Below are positions 3,001-26,600 of a stretch of 64,000 bases of DNA, one piece after another. Position numbers and translations under genes: made by a program. Source of the DNA: Chrysogorgia sp. JL179-B06 (Eukaryota > Cnidaria > Anthozoa > Scleralcyonacea > Chrysogorgiidae); contig JAYKKM010000496.1 in NCBI GenBank assembly GCA_035772405.1, positions 784,501-848,500 of the forward strand, in the 5' to 3' direction. The first letter of the stretch is position 1. The number at the start of each line of letters is the position of its first letter. The notes beneath the pieces were generated by a model. The model was not told where the DNA came from. It did not search any database and saw nothing but the letters and a program-made list of their open reading frames with translations.

Positions 3001-5035
3001 AATTTACGCTAGTTTCTGCTCAGATTAATACCTAAGGCATTATTTAGGCTATATTTTCATATTTTAAGCTTATTTTGACAAGTTAAAAGTGGTCGAAAAT
3101 CGTCAAAAAGTTAAGGTTAACCCCTTTACTTTTTGGCCAAATTTGGCCATTTTTGCCAATTTTTTGGATGTCAAAAAATGACTAAATTTACGCTAGTTTC
3201 TGCTCAGATTAATACCTAAGGCATTATTTAGGCTATATTTTCATATTTTAAGCTTATTTTGACAAGTTAAAAGTGGTCGAAAATCGTCAAAAATTAAGGT
3301 TAACCCCTTTACTTTTTGGCCAAATTTGGCCATTTTTGTCAATTTTTTGGATGTCAAAAAATGACTAAATTTACGCTAGTTTCTGCTCAGATTAATACCT
3401 AAGGCATTATTTAGGCTATATTTTCATATTTTAAGCTTATTTTGACAAGTTAAAAGTGGTCGAAAATCGTCAAAAAGTTAAGGTTAACCCCTTTACTTTT
3501 TGGCCAAATTTGGCCATTTTTGCCTATTTTTTGGATGTCAAAAAATGACTAAATTTACGCTAGTTTATGCTCAGATTAATACCTAAGGCATTATTTAGGC
3601 TATATTTTCATATTTTAAGCTTATTTTGACAAGTTAAAAATGGTCGAAAATCGTCAAAAAGTTTAACCCCTTTACTTTTTGGCCAAATTTGGCCATTTTT
3701 GCCAATTTTTTGGATGTCAAAAAATGACTAAATTTACGCTAGTTTCTGCTCAGATTAATACCTAAGGCATTATTTAGGCTATATTTTCATATTTTAAGCT
3801 TATTTTGACAAGTTAAAAGTGGTCGAAAATCGTCAAAAAGTTAAGGTTAACCCCTTTACTTTTTGGCCAAATTTGGCCATTTTTGCCAATTTTTTGGATA
3901 TCAAAAAATGACTAAATTTACGCTAGTTTCTGCTCAGATTAATACCTAAGGCATTATTTAGGCTATATTTTCATATTTTAAGCTTATTTTGACAAGTTAA
4001 AAGTGGTCGAAAATCGTCAAAAAGTTAAGGTTAACCCCTTTACTTTTTGGCCAAATTTGGCCATTTTTGCCAATTTTTTGGATGTCAAAAAATGACTAAA
4101 TTTACGCTAGTTTCTGCTCAGATTAATACCTAAGGCATTATTTAGGCTATATTTTCATATTTTAAGCTTATTTTGACAAGTTAAAAGTGGTCGAAAATCG
4201 TCAAAAAGTTAAGGTTAACCCCTTTACTTTTTGGCCAAATTTCGCCATTTTTGCCAATTTTTTTGATGTCAAAAAATGACTACATTTACGCTAGTTTCTG
4301 CTCAGATTAATACCTATTATTTAGGCTATATTTTAAGCTTATTTTGACAAGTTAAAAGTGGTCAAAAATCGTCAAAAAGTTAAGGTGTTAACCCCTTTAC
4401 TTTTTGGCCAAATTTGGCCATTTTTGCCAATTTTTTGGATGTCAAAAAATGACTAAATTTACGCTAGTTTCTGCTCAGATTAATACCTAAGGCATTATTT
4501 AGGCTATATTTTCATATTTTAAGCTTATTTTGACAAGTTAAAAGTGGTCGAAAATCGTCAAAAAGTTAAGGTGTTAACCCCTTTACTTTTTGGCCAAATT
4601 TGGCCATTTTTGCCAATTTTTTGGATGTCAAAAAATGACTAAATTTACGCTAGTTTCTGCTCAGATTAATACCTAAGGCATTATTTAGGCTATATTTTCA
4701 TATTTTAAGCTTATTTTGACAAGTTAAAAATGGTCGAAAATCGTCAAAAAGTTAAGGTTAACCCCTTTACTTTTTGGCCAAATTTGGCAATTTTTGCCAA
4801 TTTTTTGGATGTCAAAAAATGACTAAATTTACGCTAGTTTCTGCTCAGATTAATACCTAAGGCATTATTTAGGCTATATTTTCATATTTTAAGCTTATTT
4901 TGACAAGTTAAAAGTGGTCGAAAATCGTCAAAAAGTTAAGGTTAACCCCTTTACTTTTTGGCCAAATTTGGCCATTTTTGCCAATTTTTTGGATGTCAAA
5001 AAATGACTAAATTTACGCTAGTTTCTGCTCAGATT
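1..5035 (+). repeat. Satellite array, forward orientation, ~184-bp monomer
   Basis: About 27 head-to-tail copies of an AT-rich monomer, recognisable by TTAACCCCTTTACTTTTTGG at each start. Spacing between starts is mostly 183-185 bp, with one short copy of 179 bp. Variant copies recur in order. The TTTACTTTATGG variant lies at the very start and again at 2937, and the short GTTTAACCCC junction at ~727 recurs at ~3664, so a block of about 1 kb repeats with a 2937-bp period (16 monomers). A smaller four-monomer block (~733 bp) is repeated inside it. No coding potential is seen. Confidence 0.97.
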
Positions 5036-8000
5036 TGGCAAAAATGGCCAAATTTGGCCAAAAAGTAAAGGGGTTAACCTTAACTTTTTGACGATTTTCG
5101 ACCATTTTTAACTTGTCAAGATAAGCTTAAAATATGAAAATATAGCCTAAATAATGCCTTAGATATTAATCTGAGCAGAAACTAGCGTAAATTTAGTCAT
5201 TTTTTCACATCCAAAAAGTTGGCAAAAATTGCCAAATTTGGCCAAAAAGTAAAGGGGTTAACCTTAACTTTTTGACGATTTTCGACCATTTTTAACTTGT
5301 CAAAATAAGCTTAAAATATGAAAATATAGCCTAAATAATGCCTTAGATATTAATCTGAGCAGAAACTAGCGTAAATTTAGTCATTTTTTGACATCCAAAA
5401 ATTTGGCAAAAATGACCAAATTTGGCCAAATGACGATTTTCGACCATTTTTAACTTGTCAAAATAAGCTTAAAATATGAAAATATAGCCTAAATAATGCC
5501 TTAGATATTAATATGAGCAGAAACTAGCGTAAATTTAGTCATTTTTTGACATCCAAAAAATTGGCAAAAATGGCTAAATTTGGCCAAAAAGTAAAGGGGT
5601 TAACGTTAACTTTTTGACGATTTTCGACCATTTTTAACTAGTCAAAATAAGCTTAAAATATGAAAATATAGCCTAAATAATGCCTTAGATATTAATATGA
5701 GCAGAAAATAGCGTAAATTTAGTCATTTTTTGACATCCAAAAAATTGGCAAAAATGGCCAAATTTGGCCAAAAAGTAAAGGGGTTAACGTTAACTTTTTG
5801 ACGATTTTCGAGCATTTTTAACAAGTCAAAATAAGCTTAAAATATGAAAATATAGCCTAAATAATGCCTTAGATATTAATCTGAGCAGAAACTAGCGTAA
5901 ATTTAGTCATTTTGTGACATCCAAAAAATTGGCAAAAATGGCCAAATTTGGCCAAAAAGTAAAGGGGTTAACCTTAACTTTTTGACGATTTTCGACCATT
6001 TTTAACTTGTCAAAATAAGCTTAAAATATGAAAATATAGCCTAAATAATGCCTTAGATATTAATCTGAGCAGAAACTAGCGTAAATTTAGTCATTTTTTC
6101 ACATCCAAAAAGTTGGCAAAAATATCCAAATTTGGCCAAAAAGTAAAGGGGTTAACCTTAACTTTTTGACAATTTTCGACCATTTTTAACTAGTCAAAAT
6201 AAGCTTAAAATATGAAAATATTGCCTAAATAATGCCTTAGATATTAATCTGAGCAGAAACTAGCGTATATTTAATCATTTTTTGACATCCAAAAAGTTGG
6301 CAAAAATTGCCAAATTTGGCCAAAAAGTAAAGGGGTTAACCTTAACTTTTTGACGATTTTCGACCATTTTTAACTTGTCAAAATAAGCTTAAAATATGAA
6401 AATATAGCCTAAATAATGCCTTAGATATTAATCTGAGCAGAAACTAGCGTAAATTTAGTCATTTTTTGACATCCAAAAATTTGGCAAAAATGACCAAATT
6501 TGGCCAAATGACGATTTTCGACCATTTTTAACTTGTCAAAATAAGCTTAAAATATGAAAATATAGCCTAAATAATGCCTTAGATATTAATATGAGCAGAA
6601 ACTAGCGTAAATTTAGTCATTTTTTGACATCCAAAAAATTGGCAAAAATGGCTAAATTTGGCCAAAAAGTAAAGGGGTTAACGTTAACTTTTTGACGATT
6701 TTCGACCATTTTTAACTAGTCAAAATAAGCTTAAAATATGAAAATATAGCCTAAATAATGCCTTAGATATTAATATGAGCAGAAAATAGCGTAAATTTAG
6801 TCATTTTTTGACATCCAAAAAATTGGCAAAAATGGCCAAATTTGGCCAAAAAGTAAAGGGGTTAACGTTAACTTTTTGACGATTTTCGAGCATTTTTAAC
6901 AAGTCAAAATAAGCTTAAAATATGAAAATATAGCCTAAATAATGCCTTAGATATTAATCTGAGCAGAAACTAGCGTAAATTTAGTCATTTTGTGACATCC
7001 AAAAAATTGGCACAAATGGCCAAATTTGGTCAAAAAGTAAAGGGGTTAACCTTAACTTTTTGACGATTTTCGACCATTTTTAACTTGTCAAAATAAGCTT
7101 AAAATATGAAAATATAGCCTAAATAATGCCTTAGATATTAATCTGAGCAGAAACTAGCGTAAATTTAGTCATTTTTTCACATCCAAAAAGTTGGCAAAAA
7201 TTGCCAAATTTGGCCAAAAAGTAAAGGGGTTAACCTTAACTTTTTGACGATTTTCGACCATTTTTAACTTGTCAAAATAAGCTTAAAATATGAAAATATA
7301 GCCTAAATAATGCCTTAGATATTAATCTGAGCAGAAACTAGCGTAAATTTAGTCATTTTTTGACATCCAAAAATTTGGCAAAAATGACCAAATTTGGCCA
7401 AATGACGATTTTCGACCATTTTTAACTTGTCAAAATAAGCTTAAAATATGAAAATATAGCCTAAATAATGCCTTAGATATTAATATGAGCAGAAACTAGC
7501 GTAAATTTAGTCATTTTTTGACATCCAAAAAATTGGCAAAAATGGCTAAATTTGGCCAAAAAGTAAAGGGGTTAACGTTAACTTTTTGACGATTTTCGAC
7601 CATTTTTAACTAGTCAAAATAAGCTTAAAATATGAAAATATAGCCTAAATAATGCCTTAGATATTAATATGAGCAGAAAATAGCGTAAATTTAGTCATTT
7701 TTTGACATCCAAAAAATTGGCAAAAATGGCCAAATTTGGCCAAAAAGTAAAGGGGTTAACGTTAACTTTTTGACGATTTTCGAGCATTTTTAACAAGTCA
7801 AAATAAGCTTAAAATATGAAAATATAGCCTAAATAATGCCTTAGATATTAATCTGAGCAGAAACTAGCGTAAATTTAGTCATTTTGTGACATCCAAAAAA
7901 TTGGCAAAAATGGCCAAATTTGGCCAAAAAGTAAAGGGGTTAACCTTAACTTTTTGACGATTTTCGACCATTTTTAACTTGTCAAAATAAGCTTAAAATA

Positions 8001-9606
8001 TGAAAATATAGCCTAAATAATGCCTTAGATATTAATCTGAGCAGAAACTAGCGTAAATTTAGTCATTTTTTCACATCCAAAAAGTTGGCAAAAATATCCA
8101 AATTTGGCCAAAAAGTAAAGGGGTTAACCTTAACTTTTTGACAATTTTCGACCATTTTTAACTAGTCAAAATAAGCTTAAAATATGAAAATATTGCCTAA
8201 ATAATGCCTTAGATATTAATCTGAGCAGAAACTAGCGTATATTTAATCATTTTTTGACATCCAAAAAGTTGGCAAAAATTGCCAAATTTGGCCAAAAAGT
8301 AAAGGGGTTAACCTTAACTTTTTGACGATTTTCGACCATTTTTAACTTGTCAAAATAAGCTTAAAATATGAAAATATAGCCTAAATAATGCCTTAGATAT
8401 TAATCTGAGCAGAAACTAGCGTAAATTTAGTCATTTTTTGACATCCAAAAATTTGGCAAAAAATGACCAAATTTGGCCAAATGACGATTTTCGACCATTT
8501 TTAACTTGTCAAAATAAGCTTAAAATATGAAAATATAGCCTAAATAATGCCTTAGATATTAATATGAGCAGAAACTAGCGTAAATTTAGTCATTTTTTGA
8601 CATCCAAAAAATTGGCAAAAATGGCTAAATTTGGCCAAAAAGTAAAGGGGTTAACGTTAACTTTTTGACGATTTTCGACCATTTTTAACTAGTCAAAATA
8701 AGCTTAAAATATGAAAATATAGCCTAAATAATGCCTTAGATATTAATATGAGCAGAAAATAGCGTAAATTTAGTCATTTTTTGACATCCAAAAAATTGGC
8801 AAAAATGGCCAAATTTGGCCAAAAAGTAAAGGGGTTAACGTTAACTTTTTGACGATTTTCGAGCATTTTTAACAAGTCAAAATAAGCTTAAAATATGAAA
8901 ATATAGCCTAAATAATGCCTTAGATATTAATCTGAGCAGAAACTAGCGTAAATTTAGTCATTTTGTGACATCCAAAAAATTGGCACAAATGGCCAAATTT
9001 GGTCAAAAAGTAAAGGGGTTAACCTTAACTTTTTGACGATTTTCGACCATTTTTAACTTGTCAAAATAAGCTTAAAATATGAAAATATAGCCTAAATAAT
9101 GTCTTAGATATTAATCTGAGCAGAAACTAGCGTAAATTTAGTCATTTTTTCACATCCAAAAAGTTGGCAAAAATGGCCAAATTTGGCCAAAAAGTAAAGG
9201 GGTTAACCTTAACTTTTTGACAATTTTCGACCATTTTTAACTAGTCAAAATAAGCTTAAAATATGAAAATATTGCCTAAATAATGCCTTAGATATTAATC
9301 TGAGGAGAAACTAGCGTATATTTAATCATTTTTTGACATCCAAAAATTTGGCAAAAATGGCCAAATTTGGCCCAAAAGTAAAGGGGTTAACCTTAACTTT
9401 TTGACGATTTTCGACCATTTTTAACTAGTCAAAATAAGCTTAAAATATGAAAATATTGCCTAAATAATGCCTTAGATATTAATCTGAGCAGAAACTAGCG
9501 TATATTTAATCATTTTTTGACATCCAAAAATTTGGCAAAAATGGCCAAATTTGGCCAAAAAGTAAAGGGGTTAACCTTAACTTTTTGACGATTTTCGACC
9601 ATTTTT
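5036..9606 (-). repeat. Same satellite, inverted block
   Basis: The monomer continues in reverse complement from the junction TCAGATT/TGGCAAAAATGG at 5035/5036. Copies here mostly carry AGATATTAATCTGAGC, whereas most forward copies read the complement of AGGTATTAATCTGAGC. The block is therefore a different subfamily, not a simple recent flip. A deleted monomer (CCAAATTTGGCCAAATGACG) recurs at ~5431, 6509, 7403 and 8482, giving alternating spacings of 1078, 894 and 1079 bp, a higher-order period of ~1973 bp. Confidence 0.96.
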
Positions 9607-9638
9607 GCTTAAATAAGACTAAAATAATAAAATAAAAA

Positions 9639-10195
9639 AATGACTAAATATACGCTAGTTTCTGCTCAGATTAATATCTAAGGCATTATTTAGGCTATAT
9701 TTTCATATTTTAAGCTTATTTTGACAAGTTAAAACTGGTCGAAAATCGTCAAAAAGTTAAGGTTTAACCCCTTTACTTTTTGGCCAAATTTGGCCATTTT
9801 TGCCAAATTTTTGGATGTCAAAAAATGGCTAAATTTACGCTAGTTTCTGCTCATATTAATATCTAAGGCATTATTTAGGCTATATTTTCATATTTTAAGC
9901 TTATTATGACAAGTTAAAAATGGTCGAAAATCGTCAAAAAGTTATGGTTTAACCCCTTTACTTTTTGGCCAAATTTGGCTATTTTTGCCAAATTTTTGGA
10001 TGTCAAAAAATGACTAAATTTACGCTAGTTTCTGCTCAGATTAATATCTAAGGCATTATTTAGGCTATATTTTCATATTTTAAGCTTATTTTGACAAGTT
10101 AAAAATGGTCGAAAATCGTCAAAAAGTTAAGACTTTTTTAAAAAGTTTTGCTTTTTTGCCAATTTTTTGGATGTCTAAAAATGACTAAATTTACG
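9639..10195 (+). repeat. Satellite, terminal forward copies
   Basis: After a ~32-bp A/T-rich spacer (9607-9638) about three degenerate monomers return to the forward orientation. The array then decays 48 bp before the first visible exon of gene A. Confidence 0.93.
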
Positions 10196-10242
10196 GTTGT
10201 ATTAATACAAAACACATTTCTAATATTGCAATGTTTTTTTAG

Positions 10243-13200
10243 CACTCGGAGCTCATGGTGTTAACTTGGAAGTATGGTTCGATATGGAGGGTAGTTCCAT
10301 TAAGTCGCTTGAGAAGAACTTCAGATATCCTAAAACTCCTGACTTAAAAACATTGACTCATAAATTCAAGGAACCACCAAATATCGGAGAGAGTTTTGGT
10401 TCTCGGTTGTACGCTTGGTTTTCTCCACCATCGACGGGACATTTCGTTTTCTTTATTGGTATACATTATCACATTATTATTATATTAATTAAGATTACAG
10501 AGGATTTAATATAGTCAAATACATATATGGAAAAAAGTGACTGCCCCAACCGCGAATCGAACCCTGGTCTCCGAATCAACGTTTCGGCGCTCTAACCTTT
10601 GAGCTATTGAGACACAGTCAGAACAGTCAGAGATTTCTCCATATACATATTAAATTCGGTGCTTTTACTCGACACTAACAGGCAGACATCGCATCTAACC
10701 ATAACGTGGAGCAAGGCCTCTCGAGCGCACTTCCCAAAGTAGCGAAGCGATACAGAACTTATTGTATACAGAGGGCTTTAAGAATAATAATTAATATTAG
10801 AGAGGATTTAATATAGTCAAATACATATATGGAAAAAAGTGACTGCCTCAATCGGGAATCGAACCCTGAGTGAGAAATCACTGACTGTTCTGACCTAGTG
10901 TCTCAATAGCTCAAAGGTTAGAGCGCCAAAACGTTGATTCGGAGACCAGGATTCCCGGTTGGCCATCTCTGTGGACTGCCTAGCATTTACGCCTGAGATA
11001 AACACAAGAGTTTTAACTTATTATGTTTATTTTAACTTTTTCTGTGTGTATCTTAAATCTAAAACATGAATTTTAATAAACGTTTCCATTATTGTTATTA
11101 GCCAGTAACCAAGATGGAAGACTTTATATAAGTACTGATGATGATCCAAAGAATAAGAGATTGGTTTCTGAAATTGCTAACCATGACTACACATCCAAGG
11201 GAGATTGGTTTAAGTACGTAACATTTTTGAGAATAATTCCCTTGCTTCGTTATAGGATAATATAATGTTTTATTGCTTACATTATATCGCATAATAATGA
11301 ACAAGACATAGGAGGACCCATCATGCCGGATGAGTGGTGAGAAAGGGAAGACAGTGTGGCATAGTGGGTTGAAGTAAGTTGGCACAAACGGAGTATAAGA
11401 AGAGGTATGATGCAGTGGCAAGGATTGTGCACTGGAACATGAGTGGAAAATATGGGTTGAAAGAACTGACAAGTGGTACGAACATGAGGCTGAGGGAGTC
11501 ATGGAGAATGAGGAGGCGAAGGTGTTGTGGGATTTTATGGTGTAGTGTGATAGAAAGATCAAACATAGAAAACCAGACATTGTGTTGATAGAAAAAAAGA
11601 AGAAGAAGTGTGTGATAGTTGATGTGGCAATCCTTGAGGACGGTAAAGTAGCAACAAGGGATGACGAGAAGGTTGACAGGTATGAGGAGTTGAGGAGTGA
11701 AAGTAGAAAATAAAGAAGGTGGAGGTTGTGCCGGTGGTGATAGGAGCACTTGGATATGTCAGCAAGAGACTCGGAAATTGGATAGAGAAACTAGACCTAA
11801 GATACCACAGGTACAAAAGACATCCTTACTTGGTACAGCGCACATTCTAAGAAAGGTATTGCAACAATGCAGTAAGGACGGAGCTTAGTCTACAGGCAGT
11901 AGACAGTCCCGCTCTGAGGTATCCAGCGATAACATCTACACTGTGCGAATTTTTCATAATAATAATAATAAATCAAATAAGATAAAGATGCTTTGGGATT
12001 TTATGATTCAATGTGACCACTACATAGAGTGTAGAAGACCAGATATAATCGAGTAGACAAACAAGAAGGGAAATGCATGATAATCGATATTGCTATCCCG
12101 GGAGACAACAGAGTCGGAAAGAAGGAAGGAGAAAAGATAGAGAAATATGATGAATTGAAACGCGAGGTTAAACAGCTGTGGTCGATGAGGAAGGTAGAAT
12201 TCGGTTCCAGTTGTAGTTGGAGCTCTAGGAGCTGTGAGTAAAAAGTTTGAACAGTGGATAGAAAAGATTGGAATCAAGGTGAAGATTGAGCAAATCCAGA
12301 AAACGACGCTGCTTGGAACAGCAATTTAGGATACTACATGTAAGAAAAACATTAGAAAGCTAAACAACCCACTGTCACCTTAGTCTACTGGTTGTAGACA
12401 GCTGTCACTGATGAACACCAACCGAACATCAAGTTGTGCGAAGAAGACAAATAATAATAATAATAATGTTCAACAATGTGTTAGCTCGTTTCCTATAAAA
12501 GGTATGATGGCGTCATCTTTAAAAGTCGTCACTAAGCAGTGTTGAGTTTTTTTATTTTTTATTAGGTATGACAGCCAAAGATCGCCTCCTATTCCCATGA
12601 TAAAAGGGAACTATTACTACATAGAGGCTGTTCACAAAGAGCTTTTTGGAGAAGATAATCTTGAAGTCGGTGTTAAAATGCAAGATGGTAGATTTATTGG
12701 ACCAATTGAAGAACGCTACCTTTTTTATTATTACAAGAGTTCAAAAAGTAAAGGAGGTAAGCTTGATGACCCGATGGACGCTGGAGTTGCAGCTGGGATA
12801 AAAGCTGGAGAAGATGTCTTAAAGAAAGCGAAGAAAAACGCGGCAGAGGCGGCAAAGGAAGCGGCAGAAGAAGCCGTCAAACAAGCCATGCACGTCTTAG
12901 AGTTACCCACAGGTGATGGCAAGAGGAAAGCGGTGAAGTATATTGAAGAAGTGAATATTACAGCTGCTGCAGAGGGAATGATGTTGGGACTAAAACCTTC
13001 ATTAATACAAGGATGGAAAGCTACAGGTAATTAGGTAAATATATTTGTATTTATTCGTATAAAAAATATATTTAAAAAATATATGTAAATATATTTGTAT
13101 ATTTGTATTTATTTATTTATTCTGTACTGTACTGTACTGTACTGTACTGTACTGTACTGTACTGTACTGTACTGTACTGTACTGTACTGTACTGTACTGT

Positions 13201-13642
13201 GCTGCGCTGCGCTGCACTGTACAACTATGTCTGATTTATCACTTGGTTGTGTTGGGAAATTATTTGATGTCACAATAATTACTTTTGACATCCTTTCTGC
13301 GTAGTTTACGGCATTTCTTTAAACAAGAACAATGTTTTACAGGACACCATGGTCCCATCCGTCTCTACTCCATGGACTTCCCAGCTCCGCAAGACGATCA
13401 TATAAAAAATCTCGCCATCACGGTGTATAAAAATAAACTCATTCTTGGACAGTTTGGCTCTTGCTGGATTCCTCACACTCCTGGAAATTTACCGAAAGAA
13501 TCACATTACAATGAAAGTCAGACGGTGTCTTTTGAATTGATGAACAGCGATGGGTATTTTATAATGCAAAAAAAATATGGATTTGTGGTGGAAAAAGGAA
13601 ACCGGAAGAATAGTCGATTTGGTAAGTTGGAGATGGTTTTTA

Positions 13643-13693
<51 letters not shown>

Positions 13694-16600
13694 ATATATA
13701 TATAACTCGCCCAGTACCGACATTCCATCATTTTTAAGGCGCTATTTACAAGAATCCGGATTGAGTTTCATTCCGGATTGAACTCATACCGGTTCTGTTA
13801 AAATCCCTTTAGGTGTTTACATGAATCCGGAATGAGATGCAGCTCAATCCGGATTGAGTTCATTCCAGTTCTCATTCCGGAATGAAATTTCATTCGAGAT
13901 TGAAATTTCATTCCGGTTTCATGTAAAGGCAGTGCGAGATTTCATTCCGGAGTGAAAAATAAGACCTAGAGACTGAAAAGAACAACACATGCGTGCTTTT
14001 AACATTTATAGACGAGAATTTGCAGGCAGAGATAGGAATTGCGCCGACGTCATAATTAACAATTAGACAACGAGCCCGCGTTTTCTATGAGCAGATAGTC
14101 AACGAGGCGGAGCCGAGTTGACTATCTCGCTCATAGAAAACAAGGGCGAGTTGTCTAATTGTTTTAGTATAAATTTACAACTTTCTAACCCAAGAAATAA
14201 CTTTTATTTCGCATTTTCATGGAAAAAAAGTAAATATTCTTTCGAAATCAGGCGACTTTTACCCCAGAGGTTTATATCAGCGGATAGTAACTCCTGCGAT
14301 AGCCAATGAAAATTGAGGATTTGTGATATAAACTTGTCAATTTATACTAATGTTCAATATAAATAGCTCTTTGTCGACGACGTTATAAATTAAAGGTGAA
14401 TTAAATGCTTATTTACTTGCGACCGCATCGATTATCGTTGCGAGCAATGCTTTTCCCCTTTATGTTTTCTTTTCCCCTTTTCCCCTTTCCCCTTTCCAAA
14501 TTATCAGTTTAAGGCACATGTTGAAATGTACAAGCGCAGAAATCGTTGAAAGAAATTCCGCCGCTATATATAATGTTATTGATTGCCATCTTGAAATTTC
14601 AGATTTCGCACGATTTTCGATCCTGGGATAGAATTCCTATGTAAACGCGGTTTGAATTCATGTTCAATCCGGAATGAAATTGAATCCGGATCAGCGCCTT
14701 ATATAATCTTTGATTGTAGTAAATAAGTATTTTCAAAGGTTACGATAGTTTTCAATATCCAAATGTATTTTTTTAGAACTTGAAACATCGTTCACGGAGC
14801 GAAAACGTGTGAGTGCCCCAAGGACATCGTTCTTTACTTTAACAGCCGCTGACCATTGGGGGTGGGCTCTCTGTGTTGGCGACGAGATTGGAAAATTAAG
14901 ATACAATATGAAGTTCTTGTTTGACGATGACAGCAAAAAATATATAAGAAATTGTTCATTCTATGTCGAGCCAGTAGATAACTGTACACAAAGTAAATAC
15001 AGTCCTCCAGTGAAAGAAAAAACAAAGACGATAAATAAAACTCATGAACCAGGTAATTATGGTGGTGATGATGGTGGTGATAATGATGGTGATGATGATG
15101 GTGATGATGATGGTGATGATTATGGTGATGATGATGGTGGTGATGATGATGATGGTGATGATTATGGTGATGATGATGGTGATGATGGTGATGATGATGG
15201 TGATGATGGTGATGATGATGGTGATGATGGTGATGATGATGATGATGATGGTGATGATGGTGATGATGATGGTGATGATGATGATTATGGTGATTATGGT
15301 GATGATGGTGATGATGGTGATGATGATGGTGATGATGGTGATGATGATGGTGATGATGGTGATGATGATGATGATGATGGTGATGATGGTGATGATGATG
15401 GTGATGATGATGATTATGGTGATTATGGTGATGATGGTGATGATGGTGATGATGATGGTGATGATGGTGATGATGATGGTGATGATTATGGTGATTATGG
15501 TGATGATGGTGATGATGGTGATGATGATGGTGATGATGGTGATGATTATGGTGATGATGATGGTGATGATGGTGATGATGATGGTGATGATGGTGATGAT
15601 GATGGTGATGATGATGGTGATGATGATGATGATGATGGTGATGATGGTGATGATGATGGTGATGATGATGATTATGGTGATTATGGTGATGATGGTGATG
15701 ATGGTGATGATGATGGTGATGATGGTGATGATTATGGTGATGATGATGATGGTGATGATTATGGTGATGATGGTGATGATGATGATGATGGTGATGATGA
15801 TGGTGATGATGATGATGATGATGGTGATGATGGTGGTGATGATGATGATGGTGGTGATGATGATGGTGGTGATGATGATGGTGATGATGATGGTGATGAT
15901 AATGATGATGGTGATGATGATGGTGATGATGATGATGGGTATGAAACTAAAAATACAATAATTACATATATTACTGATATCAAACGTGTTATTAAAGGTT
16001 AAACTCACTGATCTCTATATTAAAACTTAATATAACGAAGTCTTAATATAGAGATCAGTGGTTAAACTACATATTCCCATCAGAACCTAACTTTCTAATT
16101 CTATTTTAAAACTCTTTATTCCTTTTAGAAACTTGTCTGCAGCTTTCCTTCACCAACCAAGCCAACACAGCCATTCTTATTCAAAGTTCAGTAAAACCTA
16201 CCCCATATAAAATAACAGATAAGACGTTTGAATTGAAAATGAAGTTTCAACCACCAAACTACGCCCCAGTTACCTTCAACGCATCAGATCCAGAGTTCAC
16301 TCAGAGACAATGTTTTATCAACGGAAGATTATTTTTGACAAGTTTACCAACGAACAACTGTAATAACATCAATGTTGTAATAACTTGCGAATACAAAGGT
16401 ATGTATGACGTATGATTTATTTAGAGTCAATCACACAGGATAAGGTTGCCCTATTTATCCAAGCCAGAGGCTCATGTTTTAAGCGCTCGAGTATTCAGTT
16501 TATCACTCTTAGGTGAACGAAAAACCCAACTGATAGGGATTCCGAGGGCTTACGATTTAAGGTCGTTTTCCAAGAAGACCCGAACCCCGGATTTCAACAC

Positions 16601-18045
16601 AACAGCTGACGTCACTCGAGAACTAGACCACAACAGCTGACGTCACTCGAGAACTAGACCACAACAGCTGACGTCACTCGAGAACTAGACCACAACAGCT
16701 GACGTCACTCGAGAACTAGACCACAACAGCTGACGTCACTCGAGAAATTAACCACAACAGCTGACGTCACTCGAGAACTAGACCACAACAGCTGACGTCA
16801 CTCGAGAACTAGACCACAACAGCTGACGTCACTCGAAAATGTGACGTCACTCGAGAATGGCGTGCTATGAACAAAATTGATCTTAATGGCATCTTTGTTC
16901 TTCGTTCTTTATTTAAATTATTGACAATATTTCTTTCTTCCTCAGCTATCTCACCAACACAAGCTCCTACAGTGGTACCGATGACCGCTGCTCCACCAAT
17001 CAAGCCAAAAGAACACAAAAAGTTAAAAACAAAGCTACCAACAAAAAAAATTATAATAATATGCCCAGGACCTCCTGGACCTCCGGGACCATCAGGAAAA
17101 CCAGGAACAATGGGGCCACCGGGGATACGAGGACTACGTGGGATAGCTGGACCACTAGGACCACCAGGAGCACCTGGTCAAAAAGGTTCAGCAGCCGGAA
17201 GTGCAAAAATAGATACACCGTCAAAGTTAGACACAAACTGTTTATGTGTGGATCCTAAATGCTTAAATCCATTATGTAGAGACAAGGAGGAGGTATTAGT
17301 TAGTCATTCAGAGTCCCAACAATCTCCATTGAATGATAATCCTAAAGAAGCAACAATTATTACACAAAGGTCAGACATACCAAGCTCAAACACGTCTAAG
17401 TATTTTTATACATCTCCATTAAGATTCCTTGCAATACCAGTATGCACAAGTTATGGACCACCGGGTCCCGCTGGACCTCCGGGATCACCGGGGATACCAG
17501 GACAACAAGGACCACCAGGACCTGCTGGTCCACCAGGGCAAGCAGGACGTCCAGGACATCCGGGGCCACCAGGTCCTCCGGGATACAAACACTCAAGCCC
17601 ATGCGAGAGCTCGTCTGATAATAAACTATGTAAGCTAAAGATTATAATAGTACATGCATCTCCACCACGATCACCACCGACATCACCACCACCACCACCA
17701 CCACCATCATCACCACCACCATCATCATCATCATCATCATCACCACCACCACCACCACCACCACCACCACCACCACCACCACCACCACCACCACCACCAC
17801 CACCACCACCATCACCACCATCCCCACCACCACCACCACCACCTCCCCCACCACCATGCCCTATCACGTGCCCTGTCACGTGTAGCTATGGTTGTCCCTC
17901 TTACTGCTGCTCAAGTCAACAACCTTATCAAGACACGTACACTAATGATCAGAAATGCCAGTGTCGTAATGTTTGTGATAATGGCATTCCGAGAACTTGT
18001 AAAAAAGTATGCAGTTGCGAAAATACGGAAATTGTAAAGAAATAA
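10243..18045 (+). CDS. Gene A: PA14-minicollagen multidomain secreted protein (5' partial)
   Basis: Seven exons: 10243-10458, 11102-11213, 12566-13026, 13343-13621, 14777-15052, 16129-16398 and 16946-18045 (stop). All have AG/GT borders and joining phases. About 904 residues are visible. Order: PA14 domain (exons 1-3), Ala-rich helical stretch, two exons of unknown fold, a module shared with gene B (exon 6), then the last exon with 13 Gly-X-Y triplets, a Cys-containing linker, 14 Gly-X-Y triplets, a Ser/Pro and polyproline run, the minicollagen [21 protein letters not shown] and a Cys-rich tail. Known minicollagens are short capsule-wall proteins with 12-16 triplets flanked by polyproline and CRDs. 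Here those parts sit on a large adhesive N-terminus. The start and signal peptide are not visible: exon 1 begins in phase 1, 48 bp after the satellite, so upstream exons lie beyond it. AATAAA overlaps the stop codon. Confidence 0.85.
10500..10975. repeat. Two tRNA-derived SINE copies in opposite orientation
   Basis: The tRNA-like core (GAGCTATTGAGACAC on this strand at 10600-10620, and CTCAATAGCTCAAAGGTTAG at ~10902-10921) has A-box-like GCTCAAAGGTTAGAGC and B-box-like GGTTCGATTC sequence. Each copy is next to AGAGGATTTAATATAGTCAA. The copies are inverted relative to each other in intron 1 of gene A. The same element is present at 34985-35360. The anticodon arm does not fold properly, so these are not called tRNA genes. 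Confidence 0.75.
11330..11910 (+). pseudogene. Decayed non-LTR retrotransposon fragment (RT C-terminal region), copy 1
   Basis: Pieces such as [31 protein letters not shown] and [11 protein letters not shown] can be read in shifting frames on the plus strand, followed by [12 protein letters not shown]. This is the C-terminal tail commonly found in animal LINE polyproteins. Stops and frameshifts break it, and no intact domain remains. It lies in intron 2 of gene A. The LINE clade is not resolved by eye. Confidence 0.65.
11985..12465 (+). pseudogene. Decayed non-LTR retrotransposon fragment, copy 2
   Basis: A second degenerate copy of the same region as 11330-11910 ([17 protein letters not shown], then KTTLLGTA further on), ending in AATAATAATAATAATAAT near 12452-12466 as a 3' tail. 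Its tandem position beside copy 1 suggests two insertions or one local duplication. Confidence 0.6.
13122..13220. repeat. (ACTGT)n pentanucleotide microsatellite
   Basis: About 16 perfect ACTGT units followed by GCTGC-type variants, in intron 3 of gene A. Open frames across it are artefacts of the repeat. Confidence 0.97.
13643..13703. repeat. (AC)n(AT)n compound microsatellite
   Basis: About 14 AC dinucleotides run directly into AT dinucleotides, 22 bp after the exon 4 donor of gene A. Confidence 0.97.
13735..14702. mobile_element. MITE-like element with inverted ends
   Basis: The left end AAGGCGCTATTTACAAGAAT and the right-end motif CCGGATCAGCGCCTTATA form imperfect inverted ends. CCGGATTGA/CCGGAATGA motifs recur near both ends. 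An internal palindrome at ~14050-14165 (GACAACGAG...CTATGAGC and complement) can fold into a hairpin. No transposase frame is seen. It fills most of intron 4 of gene A. Confidence 0.65.
15056..15940. repeat. ~880-bp (GAT/GGT) trinucleotide tract
   Basis: An almost pure trinucleotide tract of GAT, GGT and TAT triplets begins four bases after the exon 5 donor of gene A (CCAG/GTAATT at 15052). It is stop-free in several frames, including in phase with exon 5, where it would encode Asp/Gly-rich sequence ending at 16002. The clean donor and the phase-matched next exon at 16129 indicate that it is intronic. Confidence 0.95.
16410..16595 (-). repeat. Dispersed tRNA-derived SINE, truncated copy
   Basis: Shares GTGAACGGAAAACCCAACTG-type sequence and GGGATTCCGAGGGC with copies at ~42830, ~47330, ~50090 and ~55730. 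Better copies end in the complement of TGGTCTAGTGGTTACCAC (A-box-like) and GGTTCAAACCC (B-box-like), giving a minus-strand SINE. This copy lacks most of the tRNA head and runs into the 31-bp tandem repeat. Confidence 0.7.
16596..16850. repeat. 31-bp minisatellite with TGACGTCA in every copy
   Basis: About eight near-identical copies of a unit containing CACAACAGCTGACGTCACTC and then GAGAACTAGAC. Each has the palindromic CRE octamer TGACGTCA next to an E-box CAGCTG and near CTCGAG. It seems to have expanded from the end of the adjoining SINE (compare CTAGACCACAACAGCTGG at ~55970). It lies 96 bp upstream of the last exon of gene A. Confidence 0.93.
17068..17187 (+). other. Gene A collagen block 1
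   Basis: Thirteen uninterrupted Gly-X-Y triplets starting [15 protein letters not shown], right after ICP. Thirteen triplets is within the 12-16 range of minicollagens. Confidence 0.9.
17455..17583 (+). other. Gene A collagen block 2
   Basis: Fourteen uninterrupted Gly-X-Y triplets starting [15 protein letters not shown], separated from block 1 by ~90 residues that include [13 protein letters not shown]. Proline often fills Y, as expected for stable triple helices. Confidence 0.9.
17660..17910 (+). other. Gene A polyproline run and minicollagen cysteine-rich domain
   Basis: A CCA-repeat-encoded Ser/Pro then polyproline run leads into [18 protein letters not shown] (17857-17910), the exact C-x3-C-x3-C-x3-C-x3-CC spacing of the minicollagen CRD. 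In known minicollagens these cysteines reshuffle to intermolecular disulfides when the capsule hardens. Seen: spacing and context. Inferred: the same use here. Confidence 0.92.
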
Positions 18046-18873
18046 ATGCTTTATAGGCAAGTCAATTTTTTAAATATAATTTTAAAACAACGCATCGTCA
18101 CAATATCCTTTGACGTCTGTTATATCATAATGTAGGAGGTTTCTAAGAGGGGGGGTGTGTTTACATGAAGGAGGGCTAGCCCTAGTAAAAGGGATGGATT
18201 CTCGCGTTTACATGCCCTTCTAGGAGGGCTGACTTGTTTACCGAGTTGACAACATGTATTTTCCAACGTAACCCGCTGAATCTCATTTTCCCGCACAAGT
18301 TTTCAATTTAAAACCTACGTATGAACAAACAGAACTTGTGAAATAAAGAGTTGTCTTAAAATATACGGGCGAAGACCAACTTTGTCGCGTGTATAGCCTA
18401 CGAGGGCCAGCCTCTTGAGTGCGTTTACATGGAAAATTTCCAGCCCTCGTAGACGAGATCCCGTCTATCTTCAGACCTGACCAGGACATATCATCCAAAA
18501 TACCGTCAATATGTAAATAGTTTTACTTAAGTATTTTTCAAAATATTGAAGTTCGTTTATATCTCTTTAATATATCAAAAAGGCAACAAAAGCCACGACA
18601 GCATCCTTATTGCCACCCGTTTTTCGAACAACCAAGCTAGCGTGAGATCACAAGATTTGTTCTTCTATATATTCATCCACCTGCACCCAATGTTCATATC
18701 TGAAAGTCATAATTCCAGTAGAGTTTCCGGCGTTCGAAGAAACAAAATGGATTAAACATATATTTAGTTTTGAGTTCATGGTTTGAGTCTGCGACAAAAT
18801 GGTTTTTCTCAGTGACATTTGTGGAAGATTACGAGTTATCTCATGTTTATAATGAACATTTTTATGAGTGATT
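18046..18873. other. Gene A-gene B spacer
   Basis: 3' end of gene A followed by ~830 bp without a recognisable gene. 18128-18490 has repeated GTTTACATG words and partly complementary AGGGCT/AGCCCT segments, suggesting a degraded fold-back element. The promoter of gene B should be near 18500-18870, but no core motif stands out. Confidence 0.5.
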
Positions 18874-20290
18874 ATGGGTTGTGCGACTACAATGAAAACA
18901 AGTCATCCTTGGAAATTTATAATACTGATATTTTGGTTTCTTTCCGTCGCTGGAATTACAAGATCAACAAGTATTCCAACCGATAATCAATGTAAGTAAA
19001 ACTGAACTTTAACCAACATTTTATACAAACTTTAACAAGAAAATAGTATGGCTGTCAGACTCTCGTATCTATATTTAAATCTCACGCATGGCACGTGTCA
19101 GTTGAGTCTCATGATTACATTTTACCGACATATTATTTTCCAATAGCGAGCGTTATCTCCATTATGTTATCTCCATTATGACGTTATCTCCATTATGACG
19201 GTTGCATGTATTCATATATGTGAGATTTATGTGTTTATGATATGTATTATATGTTAAAGTGGTACTACGATCAAATTTTTACTTATCGATATTTTACGTA
19301 TTTATAAAGCGGAGCTGCTAAATATTTATACTCGGTCGAAACCGTTTTGCGATTCGACGATGGCAAGTATTATTTTTCTGACTCCGAATCTGGAGTTGTT
19401 ATGTCCGCCATTAATCGATCTGAAAGTGACGAAAAAAGACTCCACATGGCTAATTCTTAGTACAGTAAATCCATTAGTGATCAAGGTCCTTTTTTCAAAT
19501 TCTTCGTCTGATAGGCTGGACATTTCATCTACTTCTCGAAGAAAACAAGTAACCTCGACTTAAATTCAGGCGTAGCATTTGAGAGTCTGACGTCACAAAC
19601 AATATTACTTTTGAAATAGCGGGCTCACTTGGAACACGTTCTTAGTAATGGTGGCCTAAATAGTAGTGATTTCAGAGCTCAAAATACTTACTTCAAAATA
19701 CCATTTTTTAGTGTTTTTTTACATCGATAATCACTTTCGACCCTGAAATACTATTCTATGCTAAAGAAAATCTAATAAACGAGAGTGAATTTTCATCGTA
19801 GTGCCACTTTAAACTATAATGTGTTTGATGTAATGAGCGTATAACATACCATGGGATACATATTTTAGATAAATGTATTGCTCTCCGCTTTCTAAACCAC
19901 GTTGGAGGCAACTTCATGGTAATTTCAACAATGAAACCTGACGGATACTCAGTGACAACAGACGAATATAAATTAAAGACGATATTCAGACACTCTCAGT
20001 TACGACATTTTGTCATATTCCATGGAGCAGACGTTGATAGTAAAAAGGAGATTTTACTAGACGGTGAAAAAACTATTTCTGTTTCTCCGCAAGCAGATTG
20101 TAATAATTTCTCTGATGTGATTGTAACAGCAAAGGAAGGTAAGATGTGCAGGAAATACATCTTCAGAACAGGCTGAACATTGTCAATTAGATTTTGCTCA
20201 CTACATGAGGATTTGAGCTTGAAGATCGCCCATTTATCGTCTGTCTACCCCAAGCTCTCCCACACTAGCAGTGTACATCCTCAAGCATTA

Positions 20291-20343
<53 letters not shown>

Positions 20344-20579
20344 GAAAGTATACAATGTGCCCTACCGGCTATCACCATATGGCTTTATGGTAACTGTGGA
20401 CTTGGGACCCACTATGTACGGCTACACATTGTTGGATTGCATTGTGGAGTCACCAGAGTGCTCAAACTGCGAGCAGTGAGCAATGCATAATGCTAACAGT
20501 AAACGTCTCATTGAGAGAGACTCTCCGCCCAATCCATGAGAGTGCTCAAACCACACGAGCGGTGAGCGTAATATATACG

Positions 20580-20658
<79 letters not shown>

Positions 20659-23600
20659 AGTACATAATTTAAAGTGTCTATCTCATGTTTGGGGATTTTA
20701 CATATTCGTAATATTTGGGTCTTCCTGAGCAAAATCATAATATATTTTGTCAGCCGAAAATTTCATCTTCATGGAGTTTTTTGCTGTTAAAGTTATCGGA
20801 TGTGATGTCACAAGAGGTATTTTAAGTAACAAAAGAAAACTGGTTTGGAATGCCTCTTGTAACATCACATCCGGTAACTTTGACAGCGAAAAACTCCACG
20901 AATATGAAATGATGGCAGAGCAATACATTCGGGACAGGATAGGCTGCAGCATCATTAAATAAAGTACTAAAGCTTGATGCGATCTTTAGCACTTCGCAGT
21001 TTCCAACTAAATAGGACTCATCGAACGGTTCCCTAAGTTGAGAAAGACGTCACTGGATACTGGCAACATCTACCAGGGATAAACCATACGTCTACTGTTA
21101 GATTGTTGCACCCGATAGCCTGCTGCCACTATCTTCACCCCTGCCATGTAATCTGTGACCCAGGTAGGGAAGCTTAGGGGTTGCTATCACTTGCTCAAGG
21201 TGAAACCCCAGGCTAGTGGAGTGGGGAAGGAGATGCCTTACTTCTACATTGAAGGGCGATCAGGTGTTAACCTAATGGCCACTGTCCACTGCCCATAATA
21301 TATGTATATATATACTGTACAACATTCCCAAGCATTACTTATATATATAGTGACTGCTACATAAGCAGTACATATATCAATCGAACCAGTGCATCATTGT
21401 AACCTTCGCTCTTCATCCGGTAGCTCAATGGTTAGAGTATCTCACTGAGGACACATTATCGTCTTAAAGTATAGTACTATGACATATGTTGTCAACAAAT
21501 GGACTCAAATATATAGGTATAAAAGTTGAATTATGCAGTTTTTCTACAATACGCGTTTAGGTACACTGTTTAGGCACACTTTTGATTTTGCAACTTACCA
21601 ATGTTTTTTAATTCATTCTTCCAATTCTTTGATTGCCAGTCATTAATTTTCTCTTTCTCAGGATCTCCTACAAAAGAAAAGACATCTCCATTATTTTCTG
21701 AAACTCATCTTCCAGGGGACTCTTCTGCAACAGATGAAATAAACCAAGCAATACCACCAGTTATCCATAAGAAGACCTCTTCTCTTAGTACAGGTATATT
21801 AATGCAGCTTATTCAAAAATAAATAAAATGCCTTAACCTCAAAGTAATTGTCTTGCTTGAAGACTTTATCAAAGGAGAAGGAGAGCTGTATAGACAATAG
21901 TTTGTAAACTATTGTCTATACAGCTCTCCTTCTCCTTTGATAAAGTCTTCAAGTAAGACAATTACTTTGAGGTTAAGGCATTTTATAACAGCCACCCTTA
22001 GTTATCAATGCTTAGCCTTAAGCAAGTAACATGTGCTTACTCTATATAATTTATACTGCGAATTCAAACAGTAAAGGTTGCTGACATTAGTCAGCAACCT
22101 TTACTGTTTGAATTCGCAGTATAAATTATATAGAGTAAGCACATGTTACTTGCTTAAGGCTAAGCATTGATAACTAAGGGTGGCTGTTCTTTATGAAAGC
22201 ATAATGAACAGGAATGAATAGATAATATCATAATAATAAATATAGAATATAGCCAAGGGGCTTCGTGCTATAATTGTCAATAGCTGTCTGTATTAAGATG
22301 GCCTTTGTTGTAGAACAATTGTACCTCTGAACACAGAGAGTAAAGACCTTATATTGATAAATGGATGTATGTTGTATAGAAGCACACAACACGTTGATAT
22401 CATTCAGTTTGTATATAAGAGTTGTTTTTACTCTATTTCCCCTGGTCAAACAAGAATGAGAGTCGATGAACTCTTATTTGATTCTGCCGGTCAAAACTCC
22501 TGTTGACTGTCATCGACACTTTCTTATAGATAGAAAAAAGTCAATTTCACAACAAATAAAAGATACTGATAAAAAAGGTTAGCTTGGCATTGCTTCTTTC
22601 TTTCCCTTGCTTTATCTTTAATTCATTAATTTAAAATCAAACTTTACTTCAAATGTCGTGAATTAATGCACCATACATAAACAACAGAATCCCAAACAAT
22701 ATGGTTGGTCGTGTGAATTCAACAAACAAAATTACATTGACGTTTTATTCGTTTCCAAGGTAACATTGATGACGACAACAACGAGGAACAATACAAGAAA
22801 GTAGTAAAAAAAACCGAAGACATTCCGACAATATCCAACAGAAAAACTCTAAGACAACTGACAGTGACGAAAGACTTTGAACTGGGTGCTGACCATGCAA
22901 GTAAACGAAACGATACGACTGACAAGGATAATGACAAACATAACAGTTTATCTGAACATCTTTTGACGACGAATAACGACGGTGAAACGAACATGTCGTA
23001 CGTTGACCAGGACTTCCAATACAGAAAACCGATCTTCAATCATTTCTGGAAAAATGACAATAAGAGTTCTCGTTTGAAGAATAGAAATTCACACGAAAAA
23101 GAAAGAAAGGGACGGAAATTATTTAAAAATAATGAGAAGAGACCTTTATCAATAAACATACAAGGAAACGAAATGAAATCTCAAAGAAAACGCCATAGAA
23201 AACAAGAGGTTAAACTACTGAAAAAAATGTGGGCAATGATGCCCGTATACCAATCACAAAAAGACAGCGAGCGTGGAGAAGAAATGAGCAATGATGGTGA
23301 AGGAGTTTTGTTGAAGAACAGTAAATTAATGAAAGGGGAAACTGGCGGGACACAGATGTTAAACAAAGGTGTAACAACTACGGGAAAGGATAGGGGAATG
23401 AGCAAAGACCTCCAAGGAATGAAAAAAACAAGAACTTCTGGTACTCAGCAAGTGCAGTCCTCTGACTCGCCCAACAGAACCCACAATTCTAGAAACGCAG
23501 ACGAAAAACAGACTTTCATTTTGAAAGGATCCCATAGTCCTAAATCTGTTCATCGCACAAGCTTCATTCATAAAGACAGTAGATTATATATTGTCAATGT

Positions 23601-26600
23601 AATACCAGAGAACTTGGGTTCGAGTGAGAAGTCGAAGATAAGTCAACCAAGATTCATCCATTCCAAGGCCGAAGCAATTGAAGAAATCGTTAAAGCACTT
23701 GGGAGTAAAAGCAAGATTGTGAAGGATGCGAATGGTTTGTATTTAATCACAGGAAAACACGTAAAGATTATACATCGAAATAAACACAGAAATAAAACAA
23801 AGACAGGATTGACAGAGAACTTTAAAAAGATGTCTGCAATGCCAAAAGAGAAGTCGAGTTTATCTTCCAGAAAATTAGCACCTGATCTCACAATAAGGAC
23901 AAGGAAACCATTAGAAAGTCCCCAAGCTTTTTCACAGAGTTTAATTCGTGGTATAAAAAAGAAAGTCGGCCCACAATTTTCTGTTTTTAACGCGAAGGAT
24001 CTTGAGAAAAAGCTACGAAAGAAATTCGCAGATAAAGATGAAAATAAACATCAGAAGAGGAAAGACAAAATGATTCTATCATTTAAAGAAATTGATCAAG
24101 TTGGGAGAAAACAGTCTCAAAACGCTGTAGATCCCACGAGAGAGAGATCCCACGAGAGCAAAGCTAAACATCACAAGGTTTCTAGGCAACGTATTGGTGT
24201 AAACAAAGACGTTATTAACCATGGTGATTATTTCCAGGATCGCAGTGGTAATAATTCTGAGAATTTGAAGTCAATATCCCCCAAAACACAATCTTTCTCA
24301 GCAATAAAGAATGAAAATAAACAAGAACCATTGCCAAAGCCGTCGACAACAAATGGTAACTACGTCACAGGAGCAAGTGGTTTAGAAAGTTATTGGGTAC
24401 CACGTGATAGCTCACGTGAGAGAGCGAGCGACGTCCATGTTGAGGTTGTGGACGAGGAGAAACAGAACGAGCTCACTCAAGAGAGCTCTAAACAAGGAGA
24501 CGTTGAAGGCGACATGGAAGATGTTGAGATCATCGACGATGATGTTTTAACACAAAATAAAAGTCTAAACCTTCAAGATATTAAGTCGATGTTGCATGGA
24601 TCCCTTGGTGAGGAATCAGCAGGTATCACTAAACAACTGGGGGTTAGTGAGGAAGCCATTGGATCATCGGGAAACATTGGGTCAACAGTGGGATCACCAG
24701 GTATTACAGGGTCAAAGGAAAAGGCACTATCACTTGGAACCAAAGTATCGCTGGAAACAACTAAATCATCGGGTAACACGGGATCTACAGGAACCACTGC
24801 GTCTTTGGGTACCAAGGCAATATCAGGAACCACAGGATCACCTGGAACCACAGGATCACCTGGAGCCACAGCATCACCTGGAACCACAGGATCACCAGGA
24901 ACAACAGGATCACCAGGAACCACAGGATCACCTGGAGCCACAGGATTACCTGGAACAACAGGATCACCAGGAACAACAGGATCACCTGGAACCGCAGGAT
25001 CACCTGAAACAACAGGATCACCTGGAACCACAGGATCACCTGGAACCACAGGATCACCTGGAACCACAGGATCACCTGGAACCACAGGATCACCTGGAAC
25101 CACAGGATCACCTGGAACAGGATCACCAGGAACACCTGGAACCACAGAATCACCAGGAACCACAGGAACACCAGGAACCACAGGATCACCTGGAACCACA
25201 GGATCACCAGGAACAACAGGATCACCAGGAACCACAGAATCACCTGGAACCACAGGATCACCAGGAACCACAGGATTACCTGGAACCACAGGATTACCTG
25301 GAACCACAGAATCACCAGGAACCACTGAGTCACCGAGTACCACAGCATCAGGAGGGATCAAGGATTTGCATACACTAAGTGCTAGTCAGTTCTCAAATGC
25401 TATCCAGGTTCTTGTTAATCGTCAGGCAGAGGCAACAACTCACTTTCCACGCAAAATTGAGACAGGAGTGAATTATGAGCTAGTAAATCCCATCTATCAC
25501 ACTAATAAGGCATTAGTAAATCAAACAAACAACAGAGAAAATCAAAATACAGCAGTAGCACAAGCAAATAATGTATTAAACAGCACAAAGACCATCATTG
25601 ATGATAAGGAGCATAGGGAGCAAATGGTGCCAAAACGTATCGTGGATGCACTTTTGACGAGTCTGGTTAAAGATTTAGGAGAGAAATCATACGAGAAATT
25701 TAAGATTGAAACTATTGGTAAACTTAAAGAGACCCCAGTGGATCTCAGTGTGGACAAGTTGGATAGCTCTGGATCAAAATTATCACCTAAAGAAAACCCT
25801 CTTAGTGAAGAAAAAACAGATGAAAGTAGGATGAATGAAATGAATTATGATAAACTCCACAACAGACCCCAAGAAAGTCCAAAGCAAGCTGCAGATAACG
25901 GAAAGTTGGATAGTTTACTAGAAACATTTGTGGAATTACTTCACAAACGGTTGAAAAAGATGGATAAAAAAGCAATATCAAGTGAAACGCACCGAGTGTC
26001 ACCGCAGGACACAAAGCCCCCGACAGATGATACAATTGCTCTATTAAAATACCAAGAGGGGTTGCTATGGAGACAACAACGACGACTAGAGCATCAGCTT
26101 GCTGTGGAAGAACAAATGTTGGGAAAGAACTTGGCTTTACCAATGAGTAAGAAATTAACTACAAAAATAATGCCAGAAACAGCACGAGTTGACAATGTTA
26201 ACAAAAGAGTGCCTGTCTTAAGAAAACTGAAAACAAAAATTCGTAAACTGCATCAAGAAAAGGAACATCTTTTAGAAAAGCTTCGAATGATCCAGCTAGA
26301 AAGTGATATGAAGTCCTTTGGAGATGTCGACGTTGCCAAGGATACAACGAGCGTCGGGGAGTCATCGGTGACGGACATTTACGATGATCACGCTAAGGGA
26401 ACTGATACTGCTCCATATATGAACTCAAGAATCACTTACAAAATCCTCAAGGACGAGCAACCAAATGAAGAGACTGGGGGGAACTCTGATACAAATCTAG
26501 AACCCGGATATCATGGACCCGAGCGCTCTGTAAATCATTACGAACATATGACGACAGGAGCCGAGGTGCGTCCGGAAGTACATAGCCGTGAAAGGACTGG

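Follow-up and report, generated by a model that had tools for sequence, protein, structure and literature searches.

A predicted minicollagen-type protein with PA14 and AbfB head domains in Chrysogorgia sp. JL179-B06

The window, that is the whole stretch of 64,000 nucleotides analysed here, comprises positions 784501-848500 of contig JAYKKM010000496.1 (C496:784501-848500) of Chrysogorgia sp. JL179-B06, and searches of the species' own genome covered an assembly of 781 Mb in 522 contigs. Positions given without a contig refer to the window. Two predicted genes with minicollagen-type CRDs follow each other on its forward strand, gene A and gene B, and gene A has a collinear second copy, A', before the start of the window. 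A further CRD gene, gene C, lies unlinked on another contig.

Exon model of gene A

Gene A extends over seven exons with AG/GT borders between 10243 and 18045 on the forward strand:

10243..10458, + strand: exon 1, first part of the PA14 domain; starts mid-domain with a phase-1 acceptor; counterpart in A' at C496:764936-765151, 58% identical
11102..11213, + strand: exon 2, middle of PA14, with N-Q-D at the place of the DcisD motif; counterpart in A' at C496:765716-765827
12566..13026, + strand: exon 3, end of PA14 (12566-12756) and an Ala/Lys/Glu-rich, helical-looking stretch (12757-13026)
13343..13621, + strand: exon 4, first half of an AbfB (CBM42) beta-trefoil
14777..15052, + strand: exon 5, second half of the AbfB beta-trefoil
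16129..16398, + strand: exon 6, a domain of ~90 amino acids common to A', gene B and gene C
16946..18045, + strand: exon 7, Ser/Thr-Lys stretch, collagen block 1, Cys linker, collagen block 2, polyproline, CRD, Cys tail and stop

Reading frames, exon borders and phases were calculated anew from the nucleotide sequence. The exons hold 903 codons without an internal stop, and the phases (1, 2, 1, 1, 1 and 1) are equal at all six junctions, which upholds the phase match on which the preliminary description had rested the joining of the modules. Under random phases, such a match has a chance value of 0.0014, which is not a strict probability, since the borders were picked by eye among candidates. 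Phase-1 introns are typical of shuffled extracellular modules, and five of the six introns of gene A are of this phase. The elements originally listed for the gene (PA14, further modules, two collagen blocks, polyproline and a canonical CRD) are all present where they had been placed. The single transcript model agrees with the phases and with the collinear order in A' and in gene C, but the first exon does not lie within 10243-18045, because exon 1 begins inside the PA14 domain.

A putative signal-peptide exon of gene A was found outside the window at C496:775808-775952 or C496:775808-775985, and a satellite sits between this candidate first exon and exon 1. The satellite measures ~17 kb (C496 about 777700-794600; window 1-10131), has a unit of 184 bp and turns its orientation within the window. 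Intron 5 contains a GAT/GGT microsatellite (15059-15937), through which an Asp/Gly frame on the forward strand continues from exon 5 without stops; a longer exon 5 is compatible with this open frame. A donor at 12756, which would drop 270 nt of exon 3 in frame, was rejected as the main form, because the corresponding stretch of A' forms a coding exon. It could reflect alternative splicing; at this border, gene A has GTAAGC left where A' has an intron.

Head modules and collagen-CRD end

The PA14 profile scores 21.7 bits (E 2e-4) on the corresponding piece of gene A, against a Pfam cut-off of 24 bits, and 17.1 bits in the whole gene A product and 18.8 bits in A', both likewise below 24. By phmmer, the domain matches a protein for which PF07691 is precomputed (E 1.4e-17, 32% identity). 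Searched against the PDB, it retrieves PA14/flocculin entries as the top six and in 7 of the 13 rows, with every E above 0.2. The predicted PA14 assignment leans on phmmer more than on Pfam. When the first 560 residues of gene A were compared with 7942 candidates, three proteins were found at E <= 1e-3; all three carry PF07691, and collagen is absent from their Pfam lists. In the own genome, a profile search with PF07691 matches at two other places and at neither A nor A'. A search of exons 1-6 as a single sequence against the PDB returned a lone row, BfpC at E 0.81, which was discarded as meaningless. PA14 lectins are described as gripping sugar through calcium and two neighbouring aspartates of the DcisD motif (PMC8092209). 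In two alignments this pair is absent from both copies, with N-Q-D in A and N-H-E in A'.

The modules that had been left as unknown could be assigned: exons 4-5 correspond to an AbfB (CBM42) beta-trefoil and exon 6 to the ~90-residue domain of CRD genes. Over exons 4-5, the AbfB profile PF05270 (cut-off 22.8 bits) scores 25.3 bits in A' and 13.9 bits in A. A two-row profile of A and A' matches 3akf in the PDB at E 3e-4, followed by three more AbfB rows at E 0.07-1.1 among seven rows in total, and the domain of gene A matches the AbfB domain of gene C, itself at 58.9 bits, at E 7.5e-12 by BLASTP. Genome-wide at E <= 1, PF05270 matches at four places, two over the cut-off (gene C and C96:2638742) and two under it (C96:2636669 and C496:752375); A and A' are missing because their AbfB domain is split. 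The CBM42 pockets are described as using His, Tyr and Asp (PMC12493170). In the beta pocket of A and A', His is replaced by Gln and Asp by Glu while Tyr is kept; in the gamma pocket, which adjoins an alignment gap, His is kept and Asn/Tyr are replaced by Gly/Trp. An early assignment of exon 5 to an IL-1-type trefoil was dropped, as Pfam and PDB indicate AbfB instead. Fold models were unusable (pLDDT 34.5 for exon 6 alone and 42.9 for exon 5 with 13 relatives).

Exon 6 of gene A has no Pfam match. By BLASTP, homologous exons are found in gene B (E 1.7e-11) and gene C (E 1.5e-8). The gene B domain, searched against the genome, gave three matches, to B itself, C and A, but none to A'. Within the own genome, the domain is seen in A, A', B and C, all of them CRD genes, and nowhere else; it can readily serve to flag further capsule proteins.

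The adhesive or glycan-binding head that had been suggested is possible in view of these carbohydrate-binding-type domains, but weakened by the loss of DcisD and the partly kept AbfB pockets. With these replacements glycan binding stays possible, and a protein partner is equally conceivable.

Exon 7 holds the following features:

17068..17193, + strand: collagen block 1, 14 Gly-X-Y triplets by strict count
17239..17277, + strand: Cys linker with four Cys, all kept in the relative P0017 (CSCQNPKCTRPIC)
17455..17589, + strand: collagen block 2, 15 Gly-X-Y triplets by strict count
17662..17856, + strand: polyproline run, a CCA microsatellite of period 3 and 65 copies, largely missing in P0017
17857..17910, + strand: minicollagen-type CRD with the canonical spacing CX3CX3CX3CX3CC
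17956..18042, + strand: Cys tail with six Cys, conserved in A' and P0017

The two blocks are of minicollagen length, as had been claimed, although strict counting corrects their triplets from 13 and 14 to 14 and 15. P0017 has 14 and 14 and A' 11 and 11, compared to the 12-16 usual for minicollagens. In 60 first-order Markov shuffles of window 10000-18100, read in six frames, neither a CRD pattern nor a run of at least 12 GXY triplets appeared. The Cys tail was found only in A and A' in a search of the own genome.

The C-terminal CRD of minicollagens is present in all three sequences, canonical in A and P0017 and with CX4, one extra residue, in loop 2 of A'. An N-terminal CRD is found neither in exons 1-7 of gene A nor in the complete A', and no KR propeptide site was seen after the signal peptide of A'. 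Instead of a single collagen block flanked by polyproline, A, A' and P0017 each have two blocks; polyproline precedes no collagen block in A or A' and stands only after block 2, where it is short in P0017. The description as a giant minicollagen is thus apt for the C-terminal half, with its CRD and block length, but not for the N-terminal half.

According to PMC4863159, C-type CRDs form at least two links each, a single such CRD being enough to polymerise a fusion protein, N-type CRDs are monovalent, and Val/Ile at position 4 together with Pro at position 14 favour the C-type fold. A and P0017 both have Pro14 and Thr4, Pro11 is present only in P0017, and A has neither Pro11 nor Val/Ile4. With one CRD, four linker Cys and six tail Cys, the C-terminal half of the gene A product would fit a function in cross-linking.

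Copy A', related genes and relatives in public contigs

The best evidence that A may be one gene comes from A'. This copy, collinear with A, occupies C496:764057-773598, so that it begins 20.4 kb and ends 10.9 kb ahead of the window, and encodes 847 amino acids in ten exons with all nine junctions in phase. Its order is a signal-peptide exon (MARHGTNLVIIFWFVMVFVEMRS...), PA14 in three exons, the helical stretch in an exon of its own, AbfB in two exons, the exon-6 domain, a collagen-polyproline exon and a CRD exon. Two of its introns, which by position fall within exons 3 and 7 of A, are absent from A. A tblastn search with A over 173.7 kb revealed no third copy; the one additional row, weak at E 0.16 and on the reverse strand, contains a stop.

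A and A' are 49% identical over 778 codons, with a dN of 0.47 and a dS of 3.9 by NG86. Such a saturated dS means that the two reading frames have long been maintained. The NG86 dS is undefined over exons 1-6 and, exon by exon, for exons 1, 2, 5 and 6, while YN00 gives 0.58/0.87 on exon 7 from a poor global alignment in which the CRDs are misaligned; any argument for selection on the two copies would be qualitative.

Genes B and C are predicted exon lists, each on one strand:

18892-30779, + strand: gene B, with a signal-peptide exon (18892-18991) and an exon-6-type domain (19868-20137)
22741-27600, + strand: middle of gene B, a frame of 1,620 codons with GTTGSP collagen-like repeats
29439-30779, + strand: last exon of gene B, six canonical CRDs and one with CX4
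C76:409725-414414, one strand: gene C, with AbfB, exon-6 domain, INGDTPKP repeats, TSP1 and a canonical CRD (CHPMCFHSCVINCPKHCC)

Gene C contains AbfB, the exon-6 domain and the CRD in the order of A within 5 kb. The intron between its two AbfB exons has the same phase as in A, and its TSP1 domain scores 27.2 bits (cut-off 21.6). No PA14 was seen in the surrounding 40 kb. Before A' lie an AbfB-like exon (C496:752192-752594; 19.5 bits, under the cut-off) and TSP1-like exons (C496:757027-758118), which might belong to a further gene assembled from these modules.

Because gene calls made exon by exon fall short of the full-length protein, relatives in public contigs were sought with exon 5. Its A and A' versions, used as queries, retrieved 13 proteins at E <= 10 among 17 candidates, at 51-75% identity and E 2.5e-41 to 1.6e-28. 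In the exon-5 tree they separate into an A clade (six sequences and A) and an A' clade (seven and A'), with a support of 100/99 for the parting branch. In the own genome, exon 5 occurs only in A and A' (two matches at E <= 1), so the 13 relatives come from elsewhere unless the assembly is incomplete. On the same proviso, the duplication of A and A' would have preceded the divergence of several source genomes.

A query made of the CRD plus the tail from exon 7 gave one candidate and one match, P0017 (E 4.6e-12), on a contig of 1.38 Mb. P0017 is 58% identical to exon 7 of A in the alignment and contains, in one frame, two blocks of 14 triplets, the four-Cys linker, a canonical CRD (CPSTCTQTCTPSCPAYCC) and the Cys tail. 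The long polyproline run is not conserved in it. P0017 and the exon-5 relatives are single exons, from which a joining of PA14 and CRD is not visible.

Proposed role and alternative readings

The modules, their order, the phase-matched exons, copy A' and the relatives can be read directly from the DNA. Beyond this, we give a modest preference to the view that gene A encodes one chain joining PA14, AbfB, the ~90-residue domain, two collagen blocks and a CRD, and that this chain acts as a cross-linker between the disulfide-bonded wall of the stinging capsule and the glycan or protein matrix on its inside. The signal peptide, seen in A' and a candidate in A, would send the chain into the nematocyst vesicle, and the collagen blocks would gather three chains as in minicollagens, which in Nematostella are described as confined to cnidocytes (PMC12549020). 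The CRD, Cys linker and Cys tail would then enter the disulfide network of minicollagens and NOWA, and the trimer would display three copies of each head, holding either matrix glycans or a protein partner; the best described candidate ligand would be non-sulfated chondroitin. Nematogalectin has been described as a scaffold linking minicollagens to the chondroitin sheath (PMC9205923), and A might accomplish as one chain what nematogalectin and a minicollagen are supposed to do as two proteins. Points against a linker are the lost DcisD pair, the changes in the AbfB pockets, the deviating CRD residues, the blocks of 11 triplets in A', the merely putative first exon of A and a possible start immediately ahead of exon 7.

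An unlikely alternative places the product outside the cnidocytes, secreted into a cuticle, mucus or adhesive layer with the CRD borrowed as a cross-linker. AbfB-domain transcripts are reported as basal-disc-specific in Hydra (PMC5080974), which would suit such a location, whereas every minicollagen found in Nematostella is described as aligning with the cnidocyte lineage (PMC12549020) and the AbfB proteins known from the accessible literature have no CRD.

It is also rather improbable that gene A yields, besides the full headed protein, a shorter product of ~390 residues, a minicollagen with two blocks that would start internally at 16867 and might be driven by the TGACGTCA sites before this start. 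At 16867..16945 (+ strand), an in-frame ATG opens a signal-peptide-like hydrophobic stretch that runs into exon 7. Just ahead of it, at 16607-16842 in intron 6, there are nine CRE-like TGACGTCA sites, compared to eight in the rest of the window; a 31-bp tandem repeat of 7.7 copies, with the bases next to it, occupies 16598-16842 of the same intron. However, the possible start before exon 7 scores 1.99 in a test in which 13 of 243 acceptor-like sites reach at least 2.0, and another acceptor, that of exon 2 in A', where an unspliced start from an in-frame Met is conceivable, scores 2.16. Furthermore, in A' a stop lies seven codons ahead of the collagen exon and the intron there contains no TGACGTCA site, and the called start of P0017 falls within the exon. 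The ATG stretch of gene A may be due to chance.

A misjoining of neighbours, namely a secreted protein of PA14, AbfB and exon-6 domain and a separate minicollagen in exon 7, is highly doubtful. The single-gene model was predicted from genomic DNA alone and exon 7 has a possible start of its own, but A' keeps the order with a collagen exon that cannot start alone and a CRD on a further exon, gene C repeats the order of AbfB, exon-6 domain and CRD, and all borders are phase-matched. Finally, the missing first exon in the window and the ~17 kb satellite against exon 1 could suggest a 5'-truncated copy that no longer yields a secreted protein, which is scarcely credible given 903 open codons, undamaged splice sites, six further sequences in the A-type clade, P0017 in addition, and the candidate signal-peptide exon beyond the satellite.

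For the favoured linker, several known systems offer comparisons. Nematogalectin carries a collagen-type part and a lectin fold other than that of A and is not known to have a minicollagen CRD; NOWA consists of a C-type lectin and a series of CRDs and is not known to have a PA14-AbfB head. By its own series of CRDs, gene B is nearer to NOWA than A is. A shares with nematogalectin a lectin-type part in a nematocyst protein and the proposed link between glycan and minicollagen (PMC9205923), and with NOWA the nature of a CRD-bearing capsule protein with a lectin-type domain, there a C-type lectin (PMC9589958). With minicollagens such as Hydra NCol-1 and Nematostella NvNCol-1, -3 and -4 it has in common a canonical C-terminal CRD, polyproline before the CRD and short blocks; in contrast to them it has no N-terminal CRD, two blocks, a head of several hundred residues and an extra Cys linker and tail, and published NvNCol proteins measure 143-190 amino acids (PMC3145756). 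NvNCol-7 of Nematostella, likewise very long and of minicollagen type, also has several collagen blocks, but it carries a CRD at either terminus and its blocks number 25 over ~1000 residues, and PA14 or AbfB are not mentioned in the accessible part of its description (PMC12549020). Since NvNCol-7 is already very long, the size of A is not new in itself, whereas its heads are. The PA14 lectin domains of MpPA14 and Flo5 are similar over the domain and differ by the DcisD pair that A does not have. AbfB/CBM42 beta-trefoils are similar over the beta and gamma repeats, whereas A has no glycosidase and partly replaced pocket residues.

Neither a protein combining a minicollagen with PA14 nor a nematocyst PA14-domain protein is described in the literature covered, a scope largely outside subscription journals, preprints and supplements. 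Minicollagen and AbfB occur together, among the papers listed, only in PMC9589958, in unrelated passages of its accessible text. As far as searched, a PA14/AbfB-headed protein of minicollagen type is undescribed in print.

Gene A touches on how a capsule under ~150 bar is attached to its lining of glycans, and on the origin of protein parts in a cell type limited to one phylum. If the linker reading is true, carbohydrate-binding-type heads and a minicollagen cross-linking tail would form a direct physical link in one chain. More broadly, A, A', B and C would represent one building set in which various heads were put on CRD tails by phase-1 exon shuffling. At slightly below even chances, we consider them part of a cnidarian family of lectin-headed minicollagens, with the old A/A' split kept in several genomes, that welds glycan-binding-type heads to the capsule wall and, with B and C, arose by shuffling of phase-1 head exons (PA14, AbfB, exon-6 domain and TSP1) onto CRD tails. 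As a set with shared head modules, these genes allow the origin of organelle proteins through exon shuffling to be tested.

The remaining features noted in the window are ordinary neighbours, a COBRA1 (NELF-B) exon at 58883-59836 (+ strand; E 4e-86) and an exon with an F5/8 type C domain at 39724-40170 (- strand).
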